55,831 nucleotides of DNA, taken from assembly GCA_001657315.1 (NCBI GenBank), contig LYSV01000113.1, forward strand, positions 1-55,831. Reading direction: 5' to 3'. Positions within the stretch are counted from its first letter, which is position 1. Every line of letters begins with the position of its first letter. The position numbers and the translations under genes were made by a program. Shown one piece after another: positions 15,796-23,308 of this stretch. Origin of the DNA: Flammeovirgaceae bacterium BBD 1991-12. GTDB taxonomy: Bacteria > Bacteroidota > Bacteroidia > Cytophagales > Cyclobacteriaceae. Under the pieces are notes generated by a model that worked only from the letters and a program-made list of their open reading frames with translations, did no database searches and was not told where the DNA came from.

Positions 15796-17556
15796 TTACT
15801 CACCTTCAGGGTAATTGGGCAATATTACTGTAAACTCCGTTCCAACATTCTCCTCCGACTTTACCGATATAAAACCTTTCATTCCCTCAACGGTTTCCTT
15901 TACGATATAAAGCCCAAGGCCAGATCCGTTTTCGGCATCATTGGCCCGGTAAAACATGTTGTATACCTTGTCCAGATGAGGAGCCGGGATCCCCTGACCA
16001 TTGTCAGCTACCTTTAGCAGCAACTCATTGCGTGTGGCGCTGAACATGACTTTTACAAAAGGATCTTCAGCCTCTTCATTGTGGTATCGTATGGAATTTG
16101 AGATAAAATTCCGAAGCAGAACGATCATACGCCGCCGGTCCATCATCACGGGAACATCAACGTTTATTTCCTTTATAAGTCTTACCCTTTCGGCGCCCTT
16201 CTGATATCTCAGCTCTTCATATACCTGCTCCAACAGCAGATCCATGTCTACCTCTGCCAGTTCGATACCCATTCTTATGTTTTTCGAGTGGTCAACGATC
16301 TCTCTCAGGAACTGGTCCAGCCGTTTAACACTGTTTTCGATGCGGTCGATACATTCACCTCTTTCCTGTGGGTCTACGCGGTAGAGATTGATCAGTCCCT
16401 GAATGGAAGCCAGTGGCGACCTTATATCATGAGACAGGCTGTACACCAGATTGTCCAGCTCATGATTGATCTTTTTAAGGCTGTTGGTCTGCCCGGCAAC
16501 CGCCCTGCGAAGCTTGAAATTGAACAGCAGAAGTGTGCCAGAGCCCAGAAGCACTACACCAAGGCCTCCGAGAATAAACCAGAACCATTGCTCCAGCCAA
16601 TGAGGACTGCCTCTTTCGTAGATCAAACCCTCAATGCTGAAGTCATTATCCAGCAGACCCAGTCCTATCAGCACATTGGACATCATGGTCCATCTTTCAG
16701 TATTCATACTGCCAATCTCAAAAAGGTCCGGCATGATCAGGTTTTTTTGAATCCTGTGCTGAAAGAGCAGGTCATCGGTTGACAGCTTTGAGTTGTACTT
16801 GTTTACAATAATGTCCACCGCCTCCCGTGGGTGATCCATAGCATACTTCCAGCCTTTTATGGAAGCCGCCAGCACCTTTTCCACTCTCCCGGGGTTATTT
16901 TCCGTTTCTCTTCGGCTGGTAATAAGGCATTCTCCGTAGAAGCCTATGGCATAGTCCTCAGGTCTGAATATCTTGTAGGAGATACCCATTTTATCGAGTT
17001 TTCGGGGCTGGTCGGCAATGTGGGCACCAATGGCATCAAACTCACCGCTGAGAAGACTTTCAAGGCCAGTAAATCCTTTGTGGAAATCCACCTGATCAAG
17101 CAGTCCTGCGCTTTTTAGCATGGCCTGCACCTCTGTATGCCCCATAACTCTTTTCCCCGCCAGATCCTTTAGTGATTCAACAGCCGGATCGATAGTCAGT
17201 AAAATAACAGGAGAGCGCCTGTATACTGCACCCAATACTGATAATTCAGAACTATAAGGATCGCTCAGTACCAATCCTGCCAGCTCGCTTCCATACTGGA
17301 CCATACCTTTGGCCACTGCCCTTCGCACATTATTATCATTGTCAAACTCTTTTATCCTTACCTTCAGTCCTTGTTCCGCATAGTACCCCTTTTCCAGCGC
17401 CATATAATAACCCGCAAACTGAAACTGATGCGTCCATCGTAAATAAAGTGTGATACTATCACCTGAGACAGGGGATTGCCCAGGTACTGCCGACATTGAA
17501 AGCGTAGTAAGAAGGCAGATCAGCGCAAGGTTGGTTATCAGCGTTTTGGAGGACAC
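15796..17556 (-). CDS. NMT1/THI5-like substrate-binding domain fused to a histidine kinase
   Basis: 586 residues. Signal peptide (to about 26), then an NMT1/SsuA-type periplasmic binding domain (about 35-300: LYLRWTHQFQFAGYYMALEKG, GYYAEQGLKVRI). A single membrane span follows at about 330-352 (WFWFILGGLGVVLLGSGTLLL), then HisKA (YSLSHDIRSPLASIQGLINL) and HATPase_c (LLRNFISNSIRYHN, VADNGQGIP, GSGLGLYIVKE). NMT1 domains bind pyrimidine or thiamine precursors and related small molecules for ABC transport; here one serves as the sensor of a kinase. No transporter or response regulator lies next to it. The kinase core is paralogous to that of the gene at 11801-13195. Confidence 0.9.
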   Translation of the reverse strand: MSSKTLITNLALICLLTTLSMSAVPGQSPVSGDSITLYLRWTHQFQFAGYYMALEKGYYAEQGLKVRIKEFDNDNNVRRAVAKGMVQYGSELAGLVLSDPYSSELSVLGAVYRRSPVILLTIDPAVESLKDLAGKRVMGHTEVQAMLKSAGLLDQVDFHKGFTGLESLLSGEFDAIGAHIADQPRKLDKMGISYKIFRPEDYAIGFYGECLITSRRETENNPGRVEKVLAASIKGWKYAMDHPREAVDIIVNKYNSKLSTDDLLFQHRIQKNLIMPDLFEIGSMNTERWTMMSNVLIGLGLLDNDFSIEGLIYERGSPHWLEQWFWFILGGLGVVLLGSGTLLLFNFKLRRAVAGQTNSLKKINHELDNLVYSLSHDIRSPLASIQGLINLYRVDPQERGECIDRIENSVKRLDQFLREIVDHSKNIRMGIELAEVDMDLLLEQVYEELRYQKGAERVRLIKEINVDVPVMMDRRRMIVLLRNFISNSIRYHNEEAEDPFVKVMFSATRNELLLKVADNGQGIPAPHLDKVYNMFYRANDAENGSGLGLYIVKETVEGMKGFISVKSEENVGTEFTVILPNYPEGE

Positions 17557-19214: not shown

Positions 19215-19248
19215 CAAAAGTCCTGATCAGATATCACGGAAGTATCAC
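19215..19248 (-). promoter_or_regulatory. Response-regulator-type operator and promoter of the spondin gene
   Basis: On the minus strand GTGATA-N5-GTGATA (19248-19232, 11-bp period) is followed after 9 bp by GACTTTTG (19222-19215), one mismatch from TAnnTTTG. The same arrangement with the same 9-bp gap lies before the response-regulator gene (23308-23275). An 11-bp direct-repeat period is characteristic of OmpR-family sites. A separate inverted repeat, TTGTCAGA/TCTGACAA (19188-19195/19210-19217), overlaps the -7 end. Confidence 0.72.
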
Positions 19249-19265
19249 AGAAGTCTAACGTATTG

Positions 19266-20129
19266 TTAAAGTTTAAGGAACAGTCCGAGACTGTAATTCG
19301 GTGCAGCCAGAATATTACTGCCGGATGCGGCAAATCCGGCCGATGTGACTACCCCCAGCTTTTCGTTCAGATTATAGCTGACTTCGGGACTTATGGCCAG
19401 GAATTCCACGTTGTTGCCAAAGATACCATTGCCGGCCCCGCCTCCGGGGTCCCCGTTACGAAGTGACTCCACTCCATTGATCTTCAGGGCCAGGTTAAAT
19501 CTCTTGAGACCGGTGTATCCCAATTCAAAGGAATACCGGAATTCGTCGGAAAAATCATTCGTACGGTTGTTAAAACCTGCACCCACGGAAGCATAGAATG
19601 GAGCCGGGTAAAACGATGTGCTGGCCTCAAGGGTAAGCAGCTGATTGAACTCACCATCACCCGTCTGTAGAATTCTTGGCTCACCGGCATCGGAAAACCC
19701 TTCAGCTATTTTACCAAAAGGCAAGCCAAAAGTGAGCGTAGCGGCCACAGCTATCTTCCGGTCTTTTATCAGCACATATTTCAATCCTATGTCAGTATCA
19801 CCAAAGGAATTAACTGCATCTCCGGGCTCTATGGTACCGGACTGCCTTCTTTCTACCTCATTCAGGGTACTTCTCACAAAGAAAGGCATGTAGAGAATAC
19901 CTGTGAGCCGGTCCGTAAAGCCATATTCCCCATAGATACTTGTGGTGTACAGGCTGATAGTGGTCAGATCAATAAGTTCACCATCCAGATCGTAAAACTG
20001 ATCTGAAATAATAGCTGACTGACCCAGCTTGAAATACCCCTTCTTTTTGGGCTGAGGCCATCCACCTCCGGCCCTGACTACCGGACTGAAAAATGTAACG
20101 AGAAGTATAAGGATGATAATTCTTTTCAT
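19266..20129 (-). CDS. Outer-membrane beta-barrel protein
   Basis: I place the start at the ATG at 20129 (MKRIIILILLVTFFSPVVRA), which gives a clean signal peptide; an ATG 20 codons upstream would overlap the previous gene. The mature part, about 265 residues, is a series of alternating amphipathic strands with aromatic ends (GYFKLGQSAIISDQFYD, SIYGEYGFTDRLTGILYMPF, FGDTDIGLKYVLI) and terminates in YSLGLFLKL, a C-terminal barrel signal. It resembles the 'transporter/phenol_MetA_deg-like' barrel class. It is the fourth gene of the RR-HK-DM13-barrel operon, 4 bp after the DM13 gene. Confidence 0.78.
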   Translation of the reverse strand: MKRIIILILLVTFFSPVVRAGGGWPQPKKKGYFKLGQSAIISDQFYDLDGELIDLTTISLYTTSIYGEYGFTDRLTGILYMPFFVRSTLNEVERRQSGTIEPGDAVNSFGDTDIGLKYVLIKDRKIAVAATLTFGLPFGKIAEGFSDAGEPRILQTGDGEFNQLLTLEASTSFYPAPFYASVGAGFNNRTNDFSDEFRYSFELGYTGLKRFNLALKINGVESLRNGDPGGGAGNGIFGNNVEFLAISPEVSYNLNEKLGVVTSAGFAASGSNILAAPNYSLGLFLKL

Positions 20130-20133
20130 TTTT

Positions 20134-21090
20134 TTAAGGATTAAAGTCAGCAACCCCAAAAGTGATAGAGGCAGGTTTACATAATACAATCACATAGCGG
20201 TAGGTGTCAAGTCCTGCGTTTGGATCGATCTCACTTACATTGAACAGTGCTCCGCCATCACCACTTATTTCGGCCACCTCCAGTCCGGCAGAACGTGTGG
20301 CTGACCCCGATGTACTGTTGGATAAATAAATAAAAGTGCCCAGTGCAAAGTCTGTATCGAAATCGTCACTTAACTCCAGGTTCAGATCCCCGTTGTCCGC
20401 AATGAATAGTGTGGCCGTTCCGCTGGCCTTGTAACCGCTTCGTCCGGAGAAAGTAGCTGTTAGACTACTGCCTCCTACCTGTACAGCAAAAGGTTCGCTG
20501 GCTACATTGTCAATGGTGGCCGTGATCAATACTTCACCATTGGCTAAAGCGGTAAGCGTACCTGCCTGGCTGACCTCAGCAATGTTGGTGTCATTAACCT
20601 CCCATGTGGCCTGCTTACCTTCGATCAGCATACTCTCCACATTCCATGCCGTGGCTGTGAGCTGGACCATTTCACCTACCTGGATCACTTCTTTAGGCGA
20701 TTCGACCAGTACCTTGTTCACATCATTGGAGGTTTCACTTACATTAATGGGAACCGACTCACTCTCAACTCCCCCTACCATGGCCGTGACGGTGGTCTGC
20801 CCTTTACCTATCGCCAGGACAGTCCCGTCAATAGAAACGGTAGCGACAGCCATATCTCCAACCCTCCATACCGGGGTAACGTCCTCGGCAACACCGAACT
20901 CATTAAGGTAAACGAACTCCAGCTTGCGGTTCTCGCCTATGAGCAGGGCAATTGCGTCATCCCCCTGCAGGTCAATTTCCAGTACTTCAGGCCTGATCTC
21001 ATCATCAAGAATATCCGTGCCGATACAGCCTGTGAGGGTCATTACGGTCAGCAGGATAAATGTATCCGGTTTTAATCTAAGCATTTTCAT
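20134..21090 (-). CDS. Big_2-DM13 redox lipoprotein
   Basis: The start is taken at the ATG at 21090 (MKMLRLKPDTFILLTVMTLTGC), giving a lipoprotein signal with Cys22; this overlaps the kinase stop by 14 bp. Two bacterial Ig-like Big_2 domains follow (about 35-125 and 125-210, with 'ATVSIDGTVLAIGKGQTTVTA' and 'AEVSQAGTLTALANGEVLITA'). The C-terminal ~105 residues match the DM13 domain: 'YKASGTATLFIADNGDLNLEL', 'GTFIYLSNS' and the terminal 'YRYVIVLCKPASITFGVADF' with the near-invariant Cys. DM13 is a predicted redox domain linked to DOMON and cytochrome b561 proteins in animals. Bound to a two-component pair, it may form a surface redox sensor or effector. Confidence 0.83.
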   Translation of the reverse strand: MKMLRLKPDTFILLTVMTLTGCIGTDILDDEIRPEVLEIDLQGDDAIALLIGENRKLEFVYLNEFGVAEDVTPVWRVGDMAVATVSIDGTVLAIGKGQTTVTAMVGGVESESVPINVSETSNDVNKVLVESPKEVIQVGEMVQLTATAWNVESMLIEGKQATWEVNDTNIAEVSQAGTLTALANGEVLITATIDNVASEPFAVQVGGSSLTATFSGRSGYKASGTATLFIADNGDLNLELSDDFDTDFALGTFIYLSNSTSGSATRSAGLEVAEISGDGGALFNVSEIDPNAGLDTYRYVIVLCKPASITFGVADFNP

Positions 21091-22555
21091 ATTGTGGTAG
21101 TTGAAAGGAAAAAGTAGTTCCCTGATTGAGCTTGCTTGAGAGCTCAATGGTAGCATTATGGATTTCCAGTATTTTTTTCACAATGGCCAGCCCAAGCCCG
21201 GTATTGTTGTTATCAAGGCTAATACGCTTGTCACCTATGTGGTATCGGTCAAAAATAAAAGGGATCTGGTCCTTTGGGATACCCGGACCGTTATCGGAAA
21301 CCTTGATTTCCACATACTGATCTGTATTGTCTATTTCCACGATGATCTGTCCGTTTTCCGGCGTGAACTTGAGTGCATTATCCACCAGATTCTGAAGTAC
21401 CCGTTCTATCAGTGATACATCAGCATATACCAGTGATTTATTGGGCGTTGTAGCACTCTTTAACGTGATGTTCTTTTGCCTGGCCAGTAGCTCAAACTTC
21501 TGACACATGTCGCTGATAAGCTCCTGAATAAAAAAGGGTTCCTTTTTCGGCTTTACCTGCCGGGCCTCCAGCTTGGACAGCTCGAACAACTCCTCCACCA
21601 GCTTTTTTAATTTCTGAGTGCTTTCCAATGTGATCTTCAGGTACTTTTCTCTTTCAACCTCGGATAGCTGATGATGTTTCATCATCAGTGTTTCAATATA
21701 ACCCTGAATAACAGCCAGCGGGGTGCGGAGGTCATGGGAGACGTTGCCCACCAGCTCCCGTCTCAGGTTTTCCATGGATTTCAGGTTTTCGATATTCCCT
21801 ACAATGGTGTCGGCCATTTCATTAAAGGCCAGGGCCAGATCATTGATGCCGCCGCCTTCCTTCACAGGTATCCGTGTGCTCATCTCACCATTTTGGAAAC
21901 GCTTTACTGTGGCTATGATTCGGTTAAGGTTTCTGGTGATCAGCCAGATAGCCAGTATGCCCAGCGCCAGTGCGGAAAGCAGAGCGATCAGCATAGCCCT
22001 GCCACCCAGTTTGAAAATGTAGCTGTTCAGTACACTTTCCGATGCGGACTCGTATTCTTCACTGGCAAGGATAACGTAGATATAGGCTATGGTCTGTCCC
22101 TCTTCAACTATACTGCCGGCCGAAAAGACCTTTTTCTTTCCGGGGTTACGGGGGTCGTCCCCCACTACGTATTGCTGTCCTTTGGAAGCTATAAATTCCC
22201 TGACGGGCGCGAGGTCCACCTCTTCCAGTTTCACTTTTTTGTAGGGAGCCACGTAGTTCAGTATTTTTCCGGCTGCGTCCAGTATGTACACCTCAATACT
22301 GGGATTAATGGCCATCATGTGATGCATGATCTCATCGGTAGCTGTTGTGTCCAGCTTACCTCCCACATACGGTTTTACTTCACTGATGATATGCTCGGCG
22401 ATGTCAGCATTCAGTCTTTGATTACGCTCCTGAACATACATTTCGGCAAGATTAACAGTGATGAACACGTAGGCAAAACCGACTACTACCAGCAGTCCGG
22501 TGAGTGTGATCACTATTTTCCAGAAAAATCCGCTGTATGAGTATTTATTGCTCAT
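21077..22555 (-). CDS. Sensor histidine kinase (EnvZ/PhoR type, HAMP)
   Basis: 492 residues. Membrane spans at about 10-32 and 183-205 enclose a periplasmic sensor of ~150 residues (PAS/CACHE-like: IEVYILDAAGKILNYV). A HAMP domain follows (NLNRIIATVKRFQNGEMSTR), then HisKA (GNVSHDLRTPLAVIQGYIET) and HATPase_c (LQNLVDNALKFTPENG, VSDNGPGIP, NTGLGLAIVKKI). Its ATG overlaps the response-regulator stop by 11 bp, so the two are translationally coupled. The periplasmic domain would detect the signal and the neighbouring regulator would respond. Confidence 0.93.
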   Translation of the reverse strand: MSNKYSYSGFFWKIVITLTGLLVVVGFAYVFITVNLAEMYVQERNQRLNADIAEHIISEVKPYVGGKLDTTATDEIMHHMMAINPSIEVYILDAAGKILNYVAPYKKVKLEEVDLAPVREFIASKGQQYVVGDDPRNPGKKKVFSAGSIVEEGQTIAYIYVILASEEYESASESVLNSYIFKLGGRAMLIALLSALALGILAIWLITRNLNRIIATVKRFQNGEMSTRIPVKEGGGINDLALAFNEMADTIVGNIENLKSMENLRRELVGNVSHDLRTPLAVIQGYIETLMMKHHQLSEVEREKYLKITLESTQKLKKLVEELFELSKLEARQVKPKKEPFFIQELISDMCQKFELLARQKNITLKSATTPNKSLVYADVSLIERVLQNLVDNALKFTPENGQIIVEIDNTDQYVEIKVSDNGPGIPKDQIPFIFDRYHIGDKRISLDNNNTGLGLAIVKKILEIHNATIELSSKLNQGTTFSFQLPQYENA

Positions 22556-23267
22556 TGGATATATTGTTTATTGGGAAATCGTCATTAAACCGGTAGCCCA
22601 CCCCCCATGTAGTGAGAATGTAGGTAGGATTGGACAGATCCTGCTCCACCTTTGCACGCAACCGGTTGATATGCGAGTTGACCGTATGCTCGTAGCCCTC
22701 AAATTCGTAACCCCAAACCAGAGACAGCAGCTTGTCCCGTGAATAGTTCTTGCCCGGATTGGAAGCCAGAAGGTACAGCAGGTCAAACTCTTTTGGCGTC
22801 AGGTCAATCCGCCGTTCACCGATCATCACCTTTCTTTTTCCCTGATCGATCTGAAGGTTTCCATGTCTAAGGATCTGGGTGGAGGGCTCTTGATTTCTCA
22901 GCATGTCCACCCTTCTGAAAATTGCTTTCACGCGGGCAATGAATTCCCGTACGCTGAAAGGCTTGGTGAGGTAGTCATCAGCCCCGGTCTCCAGTCCCAT
23001 TATCTTGTCTATCTCTTCGCTTCGTGCTGTGAGCATCAGAATAGGGGTTTTGATCTTGTTGGCCCTCAGGTCACGGCATATCTCCAGCCCATCCTTTTCC
23101 GGTAGCATGATGTCCAGAATGATAAGATCAAAATGCTCTGAAAGGGCCGTATTGTACCCTGCCTGTCCATTGGAAAAGGACATCAACTGACATTCCAGAT
23201 CCTTAAGATGGAGCTCCAGCAACTCTTTGATATGAATATCGTCCTCGATCAGAAGAATCTTCTTCAT
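22545..23267 (-). CDS. OmpR-family response regulator
   Basis: 240 residues. The receiver domain has acidic residues D9/D10, phospho-acceptor D52 (LIILDIMLPEKDG), T in 'MLTARS' and K in 'YLTKPF'. The C-terminal winged helix shows IDLTPKEFDLLYLLASNPG and YEHTVNSHINRLRAKVE, typical of OmpR/PhoB. It is the first gene of an operon with its kinase, the DM13 lipoprotein and the barrel protein. The promoter carries a tandem GTGATA site, so autoregulation is likely. The same site lies before the spondin gene. Confidence 0.95.
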   Translation of the reverse strand: MKKILLIEDDIHIKELLELHLKDLECQLMSFSNGQAGYNTALSEHFDLIILDIMLPEKDGLEICRDLRANKIKTPILMLTARSEEIDKIMGLETGADDYLTKPFSVREFIARVKAIFRRVDMLRNQEPSTQILRHGNLQIDQGKRKVMIGERRIDLTPKEFDLLYLLASNPGKNYSRDKLLSLVWGYEFEGYEHTVNSHINRLRAKVEQDLSNPTYILTTWGVGYRFNDDFPINNISNEQ

Positions 23268-23274
23268 AATTTAA

Positions 23275-23308
23275 CAAATGTAAATACTAAGTATCACGAA
23301 AATATCAC
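23275..23308 (-). promoter_or_regulatory. Autoregulatory operator and promoter of the response-regulator operon
   Basis: On the minus strand GTGATA-N5-GTGATA (23308-23292) is followed after 9 bp by TACATTTG (23282-23275), a perfect TAnnTTTG -7 element. The ATG lies 8 bp further on, so the mRNA would be nearly leaderless. The tandem site occupies the place of the -33 element, as at an activator-dependent promoter. Matching architecture at the spondin gene supports it. Confidence 0.75.

Follow-up and report, generated by a model that had tools for sequence, protein, structure and literature searches.

A conserved tandem operator and -7 box at response-regulator and spondin lipoprotein genes point to a putative regulon of Bacteroidota

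The window, which is the whole 55,831-nucleotide stretch of DNA analysed here (contig LYSV01000113.1 of Flammeovirgaceae bacterium BBD 1991-12), carries two copies of a 34-bp element. One copy stands ahead of a gene for an OmpR/PhoB-type response regulator, and the other stands ahead of a gene for a spondin-domain lipoprotein. On the minus strand, both consist of the half-site pair GTGATA-N5-GTGATA followed after nine base pairs by a -7 box. The element is very probably the operator and core promoter of a small regulon that is run by the adjacent response regulator acting as an activator. The motif, its spacing, its conservation and the classes of its target genes can be read directly from the DNA. 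Judged by this sequence evidence, the regulon appears to be new, real and well conserved. No description of this regulon, or of any bacterial spondin or DM13 regulon, was found in the open PubMed Central literature among the matches listed.

In the proposed mechanism, a phosphorylated dimer of the response regulator would bind two head-to-tail half-sites, YGTGATAnTTY, which repeat with an 11-bp period at approximately -38 to -22. The operator would take the place where a -33 TTTG would stand, and the regulator would assist the housekeeping RNA polymerase in using the TAnnTTTG box, which lies 9 bp downstream. The regulator would control its own gene row (response regulator, kinase, Big_2/DM13-like lipoprotein and outer-membrane protein) and the adjoining spondin lipoprotein. 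Further targets in the same genome would be a second spondin gene, a row encoding a lipoprotein, a DUF547 protein, an outer-membrane protein and a GDSL hydrolase, and probably a 432-aa lipoprotein. Binding by the response regulator, activation, the extents of the operons and the signal are what we infer from the patterns described below.

Operator and Promoter Elements of the Window

A preliminary description of the window had claimed the same layout at both genes, and both 34-bp elements are indeed present on the minus strand (Table 1). Its counts were reproduced as well: the 17-bp tandem sites share 15 of 17 positions, and at both promoters 9 bp separate the tandem site from the -7 box. The weak third half-site of the spondin operator, GTTAGA, is an addition to that description. 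The TAnnTTTG consensus is matched completely at the response-regulator gene and at five of its six fixed bases at the spondin gene.

Table 1. Promoter features and genes of the regulon in the window
Feature	Position	Strand	Remarks
Response-regulator gene, 34-bp element	23308-23275	-	GTGATATTTTCGTGATACTTAGTATTTACATTTG
Response-regulator operator, upstream half-site	23303..23308	-	GTGATA
Response-regulator operator, downstream half-site	23292..23297	-	GTGATA; 11 bp from the first
Response-regulator -7 box	23275..23282	-	TACATTTG; 9 bp past second half-site; 7 nt ahead of start codon
Spondin gene, 34-bp element	19248-19215	-	GTGATACTTCCGTGATATCTGATCAGGACTTTTG
Spondin operator, weak third half-site	19254..19259	-	GTTAGA; 11 bp upstream of the GTGATA pair
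Spondin operator, half-site	19243..19248	-	GTGATA
Spondin operator, half-site	19232..19237	-	GTGATA
Spondin -7 box	19215..19222	-	GACTTTTG; 9 bp past last half-site; 32 nt ahead of start codon
OmpR/PhoB-type response regulator, 240 aa	22545..23267	-	Response_reg and Trans_reg_C; recognition helix EHTVNSHINRLR
Sensor histidine kinase, 492 aa	21077..22555	-	HAMP, HisKA, HATPase_c and predicted PAS/Cache-like extracytoplasmic domain; overlaps response-regulator gene
Big_2 lipoprotein, third gene of row	20134..21090	-	Weak C-terminal DM13 resemblance, below Pfam cut-off
PF13557-type outer-membrane protein, fourth gene of row	19266..20129	-	
Spondin-domain lipoprotein, 444 aa	17848..19182	-	NCBIfam NF038123

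The TAnnTTTG sequence is the -7 consensus and is accompanied by a -33 TTTG element, according to the accessible part of one report (PMC7366714). In Flavobacterium psychrophilum it spans -12 to -5, as given in the available part of another (PMC9723704). When the box is placed at -12 to -5, the half-sites fall at -38 to -33 and at -27 to -22, where the -33 TTTG is expected. A fixed distance between operator and -7 box, which is the mark of a class II-like activator, was found here (9 bp). It argues for contact with RNA polymerase and hence, probably, for activation.

Occurrence beyond Chance

The bare core is weak evidence by itself. With two mismatches allowed, it has 7 matches in the window against 4.05 expected, and 741 in the whole genome against 563 for the controls. 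The full consensus, GTGATANTTNCGTGATANNTGN9TTTG, covers 34 bp with 21 fixed bases. It was built from eight known sites, which are training data: the two window sites, two others of the same genome (C230 and C4) and four more. The preliminary description made its regulon depend on the motif not being abundant at random positions. This holds once the -7 box is included: the 34-bp pattern with up to three mismatches, searched before the consensus was built, gives five matches in the window's own genome, with none for the reversed control, and the consensus with up to two of 21 mismatches gives 58 sites in 36 of 295 genomes of the family, with none for the reversed consensus in every genome. Eight of the 58 are training sites. 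A chance origin is ruled out by these reversed patterns and by the permuted patterns given below. At up to three mismatches, the consensus found 51 places in 98 genomes against 14 for controls, so lone three-mismatch sites prove little. Those in G015 (C77), G042, G052, G055 (C34) and G097 are followed by no gene of a target class and were taken as chance.

The exact 17-bp core has five copies in the whole 8.59-Mb genome of the window, of which two (C24 and C127) have no -7 box at the correct position. The five 34-bp matches are the two window sites, one ahead of the second spondin gene (C4), one ahead of the lipoprotein-DUF547 row (C230) and one of a different geometry (C256). The C230 row encodes, in order, a lipoprotein, a DUF547 protein (84 bits, cut-off 27), a beta-barrel protein below the cut-off and a GDSL hydrolase, the last set off by a gap of ~360 bp. 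The C256 site (G000:C256:28093-28126; L025/L124) has four half-sites in 11-bp steps ahead of the gene for the 432-aa lipoprotein. Four half-sites also precede a 430-aa lipoprotein gene in a different genus (G023; L096). The two lipoproteins are 87% identical, and such high identity across genera may reflect recent transfer.

Conservation at Orthologous Promoters

Conservation was assessed at places chosen by protein and not by motif. Response-regulator orthologs were found in 107 of the 295 family genomes; nine candidates were scored per genome, so absences are soft. Their promoters were examined in 95 of these 107 genomes, and the window's own genome was among the 12 left out. The consensus was found within six mismatches ahead of the response regulator in 83 of the 95. 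Counted by row (117 rows, some genomes appearing twice), 82 promoters matched within four mismatches, and 200 letter-permuted patterns gave a mean of 0.015 and a maximum of 1.

A second set comprised 80 named loci, the best 80 of 346 found through the kinase, with 76 evaluable response-regulator promoters. The two promoter sets overlap, since some contigs of the family genomes recur among these records. The consensus was present within six mismatches in 63 of the 76 and within five in 60, the latter against a mean of 0.13 and a maximum of 2 for 100 permutations. The motif-bearing records include Bacteroidales (L309, L331), Chitinophagales (L346), Algoriphagus (L337) and Ignavibacteriales (L310). 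Other Chitinophagales and Ignavibacteria records among the best 80 of 346 had no motif ahead of the response regulator.

Spondin genes were found at 39 places in 37 genomes. Loci were available for 31, one of which lacked upstream DNA, leaving 30 evaluable genes. An operator within five mismatches precedes 23 of them, all in genomes with the response regulator, or 17 of 24 when six training sites are set aside. Among the other genes, three score 6-7 mismatches and four score eight or more (L013, L265, L260, L014). Neither of the two spondin genes in genomes without the response regulator (L013, L265) has the operator. The motif is thus conserved at orthologous promoters, as the preliminary description required for its regulon.

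The geometry is equally constant. In a test that used the half-sites only, the -7 box stood at a spacing of 9 in 47 of 86 response-regulator promoters of the family and in at most two at any other spacing from 3 to 17. The named records gave 46 of 66 at this spacing and at most three at others. GTGA pairs had a period of 11 in 82 of 95 family genomes and 56 of 76 named records, with at most one at each other period from 6 to 15 in either set.

This single spacing bears on the possibility that the response regulator binds here as a repressor, blocking RNA polymerase at the -33/-7 region until a signal relieves the repression. The sites do overlap the region occupied by RNA polymerase. However, a repressor needs no single 9-bp spacing, and the operator stands in place of the -33 TTTG on which a promoter without assistance would rely. 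Repression is consequently considered unlikely, and activation by the regulator is favoured. It is also hardly credible that the two window elements are alike through local copying of a promoter segment without regulatory meaning. They lie only 4 kb apart in one gene row, but apart from the operator and -7 box their promoters differ. Unlinked genes and other genera show this arrangement too, and its cross-genus conservation refutes local copying.

The start codon of the response regulator lies close to the -7 box in the window (Table 1), and it lies within 9 nt in 21 of 83 response-regulator promoters. The genes behind 46 other sites start further off, with a median of 26.5 nt versus 16 nt for the response regulator (p 5e-10). 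Given start codons so near the -7 box, many response-regulator transcripts may have little or no leader.

Genes behind the Sites

The preliminary description confined its regulon to the response-regulator operon and the spondin gene. The sequence tests support both members, and the regulon is wider. Five main classes account for 51 of the 58 family sites: 19 precede the response regulator, 12 spondin genes (11 of NF038123 type and one of PF06468), 11 DM13-type genes, 7 RskA_C-like genes and 2 the lipoprotein-DUF547-outer-membrane protein row. The remaining seven are four sites ahead of other genes and three without a clear gene. A few members were classed by Pfam or NCBIfam, and the rest by their likeness to these. 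Proteins were sorted without their first 28 residues; iterated profiles of full proteins merged the lipoprotein families, probably via shared signal peptides. One target (G017) is nearer to the Big_2/DM13-like protein than to plain DM13 proteins, and one RskA_C-like frame (G002) is short (91 aa). A further 40 sites with up to three mismatches were found in the 80 named loci, ahead of 14 RskA_C-like, 10 spondin, 4 DM13 and 12 other genes.

The slot after the outer-membrane protein gene shows how these families are exchanged under the same operator. In relatives of the window's genome it holds a spondin gene in G004, a DM13 lipoprotein gene in G001, G009, G011 and G014, and an RskA_C-like lipoprotein gene in G013.

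A third, degenerate half-site is clearer in target promoters than in response-regulator promoters (2.88 versus 2.13 of 6 matches, Mann-Whitney p 0.02; shuffled values 1.60 and 1.63). ArcA binds direct repeats with a centre-to-centre distance of 11 bp, and three to five repeats are often present, according to the accessible part of the report (PMC3798270).

Two loci, L142 and L181:8195 (G328, G324), have matching sites that resemble the operator on the downstream side of a spondin gene, and no gene is evident after these sites. At L176 (G162:C133), an operator with one mismatch precedes a gene that by eye looks to be of Crp/Fnr type, a possible regulatory link.

The Regulator and Its Operator

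In both its domains and the geometry of its operator, the regulator is an ordinary member of the OmpR/PhoB type. Both domains of this type are present (PF00072, 92.9 bits; PF00486, 94.1 bits), and a direct-repeat operator with an 11-bp period stands ahead of its own gene. The pho box of PhoB is positioned over the -35 region. The present system resembles PhoB with its pho box and ArcA with its box in the receiver and winged-helix domains, in the two direct repeats of 11-bp period, sometimes with extra ones, and in the location over the -35/-33 region. It differs from them in its half-site, YGTGATAnTTY, in its target set and in having a Bacteroidota -7 box instead of a -10 element. The protein scores below the equivalog cut-offs for PhoB (TIGR02154, 204.5 versus 296.2; NF053854, 177.1 versus 270), as well as those for OmpR, MtrA and YycF. 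These curated cut-offs rule out its identity as a PhoB phosphate regulator.

Binding of this regulator to the sites is indirectly backed by co-occurrence and by covariation between recognition helix and operator in one genus. The response regulator is present in 35 of the 36 motif genomes versus 107 of 295 overall (Fisher p 1.5e-16) and in 35 of the 37 spondin genomes (Fisher p 2e-15), neither value being corrected for phylogeny. The recognition helix is nearly invariant, with histidine at residue 194 in 117 of 119 rows. The exceptions are asparagine in G107 and glycine in G167, the only two genomes of that genus in the set. Their spondin operators read GTAATA-N5-GTAATA with unchanged geometry, and this exact form occurs in three of the 295 genomes (G107, G167 and G226). 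The covariation is probably one evolutionary event, and it is suggestive rather than decisive. The change of histidine 194 together with the operator would represent a natural specificity switch for an OmpR-type helix. Ser198 was ruled out as a specificity residue, as Ala198 occurs in 18 other rows, several with GTGATA operators.

Another regulator might recognise the element, either a paralogous OmpR-type response regulator or an alternative sigma factor, with the adjacent response regulator merely one of its targets. The genome has 95 first-look candidates for response-regulator-like proteins, and cross-talk is conceivable by sequence. Nevertheless, the response-regulator gene is the commonest target (19 of 58 sites), the sites are almost confined to genomes with this regulator, and the operator differs where its helix differs. 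A sigma factor is at odds with the sites that have four half-sites and lack a fixed -7 box, and these sites together with the tandem repeats rule one out. Control by another regulator is thus very improbable.

Several observations weigh against control by the adjacent regulator as proposed here. The motif is lacking within six mismatches ahead of the response regulator in 12 of 95 family genomes and 13 of 76 named records, and 5 of the 28 spondin genes in genomes with the regulator have no operator within five mismatches. G002 (L120) keeps a site ahead of its RskA_C-like gene, and the response regulator and kinase are absent from the otherwise conserved locus. The covariation of helix and operator comes from a single genus, and G226 has the exact GTAATA form once yet a normal helix. 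At some of the response-regulator promoters without the motif, the operator stands ahead of a neighbouring target instead.

Candidate Signals

To our knowledge, no role has been established for DUF547 proteins or for bacterial lipoproteins of the spondin, DM13 or RskA_C-like kinds, and none was found in the open PubMed Central literature among the matches listed. The operator precedes MsrA/MsrB genes, an MsrP-like enzyme and a BufB row in some other genomes, and for this reason the signal may be metal or oxidant damage in the envelope, with the spondin and DM13-like lipoproteins of the window as part of the response. We rate this somewhat short of an even chance. In a Ferruginibacter locus (L311), the operator precedes genes for MsrB, MsrA, DUF1223, cytochrome b561 and an MsrP-like molybdo-enzyme by Pfam. 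For this enzyme, MsrP was the best of four models at 88 bits, below the cut-off of 207. A second Ferruginibacter locus (L312) has a like row after the operator, by eye. In a member of the Melioribacteraceae (L333), a DUF7482 lipoprotein and then an MsrA-MsrB fusion follow the operator. The evidence is weaker in the window's own family (L173, G137), where a similar lipoprotein, with DUF7482 below the cut-off, is accompanied by a gene with the MsrA motif GCFW. In L334, the operator is followed by genes for a P460-like lipoprotein (just below the cut-off), a small Cys-rich protein, a BufB maturase (341 bits versus a cut-off of 310), an unknown protein and a DUF2063 protein. In these Msr and Buf rows, the genes after the first are assumed to be transcribed together with it.

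There is about an even chance that the regulon is real and answers to a different signal, such as osmotic, phosphate-related or surface-attachment control of lipoproteins. The targets in the window are lipoproteins of the cell surface that carry spondin, Big_2 and DM13-like domains. The sensor domain of the kinase was modelled (mean predicted local distance difference test score 81; predicted template modelling score 0.61) and gave two matches at E <0.001, both long chemoreceptor models with a root-mean-square deviation of 18. The next matches are several unrelated PAS/Cache-type sensor domains with weak resemblance (E 0.0025 and above), offering no ligand clue. The rows at L311, L312, L333 and L334 and, more weakly, L173 speak against such a signal.

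Two points count against metal or oxidant damage as the signal. A pattern scan of the window and of the own-genome stretches L080, L081 and L124 found no MsrA, MsrB or BufB-type motif, and so none stands beside the window targets. In Caulobacter, induction of the sigma-F regulon is independent of oxidative stress and msrA homologs are unchanged, according to the available part of the report (PMC3511200).

The same part of that report lists YedY, DUF692, DUF2063 and DUF2282 genes in the sigma-F regulon, which responds to chromium and cadmium (PMC3511200). Some genomes of the present set share with it a YedY/MsrP-like molybdo-enzyme, DUF692 (BufB-type) and DUF2063 genes. However, as far as the accessible text goes, the Caulobacter system is an extracytoplasmic function (ECF) sigma factor with its regulator NrsF, whereas a two-component system is found here, and msrA homologs are unresponsive there, whereas MsrA/MsrB are among the targets here in some genomes. 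The portion of the Caulobacter gene table at hand contains no spondin, DM13 or RskA_C-like proteins (PMC3511200).

The gene content also recalls a two-component system. HprSR of E. coli drives the extracytoplasmic methionine sulfoxide reductase MsrPQ. Its regulator and operator differ from those described here, where Msr targets occur in some genomes only.

More tentatively, the system could be an ancient envelope-repair regulon that crosses phyla, from Bacteroidota to Ignavibacteria. It would combine a near-frozen helix and one operator geometry with interchangeable surface lipoproteins, and with Msr and bufferin-type genes in some lineages. The lipoprotein families exchanged under the one operator are spondin, DM13, RskA_C-like, DUF7482, P460-like and DUF547. 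We hold this possible rather than probable. If it is true, the sigma-F-type BufB/MsrP response would have its two-component counterpart in this regulon, and the spondin and DM13 lipoproteins of bacteria would contribute to protection against metals or oxidants. The analysis provides an operator at base level and lists targets for a widespread two-component system of which no study was found in the open PubMed Central literature. One operator over spondin, DM13, RskA_C-like and DUF547 genes, and near Msr and bufferin maturase genes elsewhere, makes the functions of these proteins directly testable.

Gene Row of the Window

The genes of the row are listed in Table 1. The second operator stands between the outer-membrane protein gene and the spondin gene. 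The spondin protein matches NF038123 in three stretches (243.6 bits, cut-off 40) and has no Pfam match at E 0.001. The closest named relatives that share the gene row are Fulvivirga species, such as F. kasyanovii (L278). Adjoining the regulon, at 15796-17556 of the window, is a gene for an NMT1/THI5-like binding domain fused to a histidine kinase.

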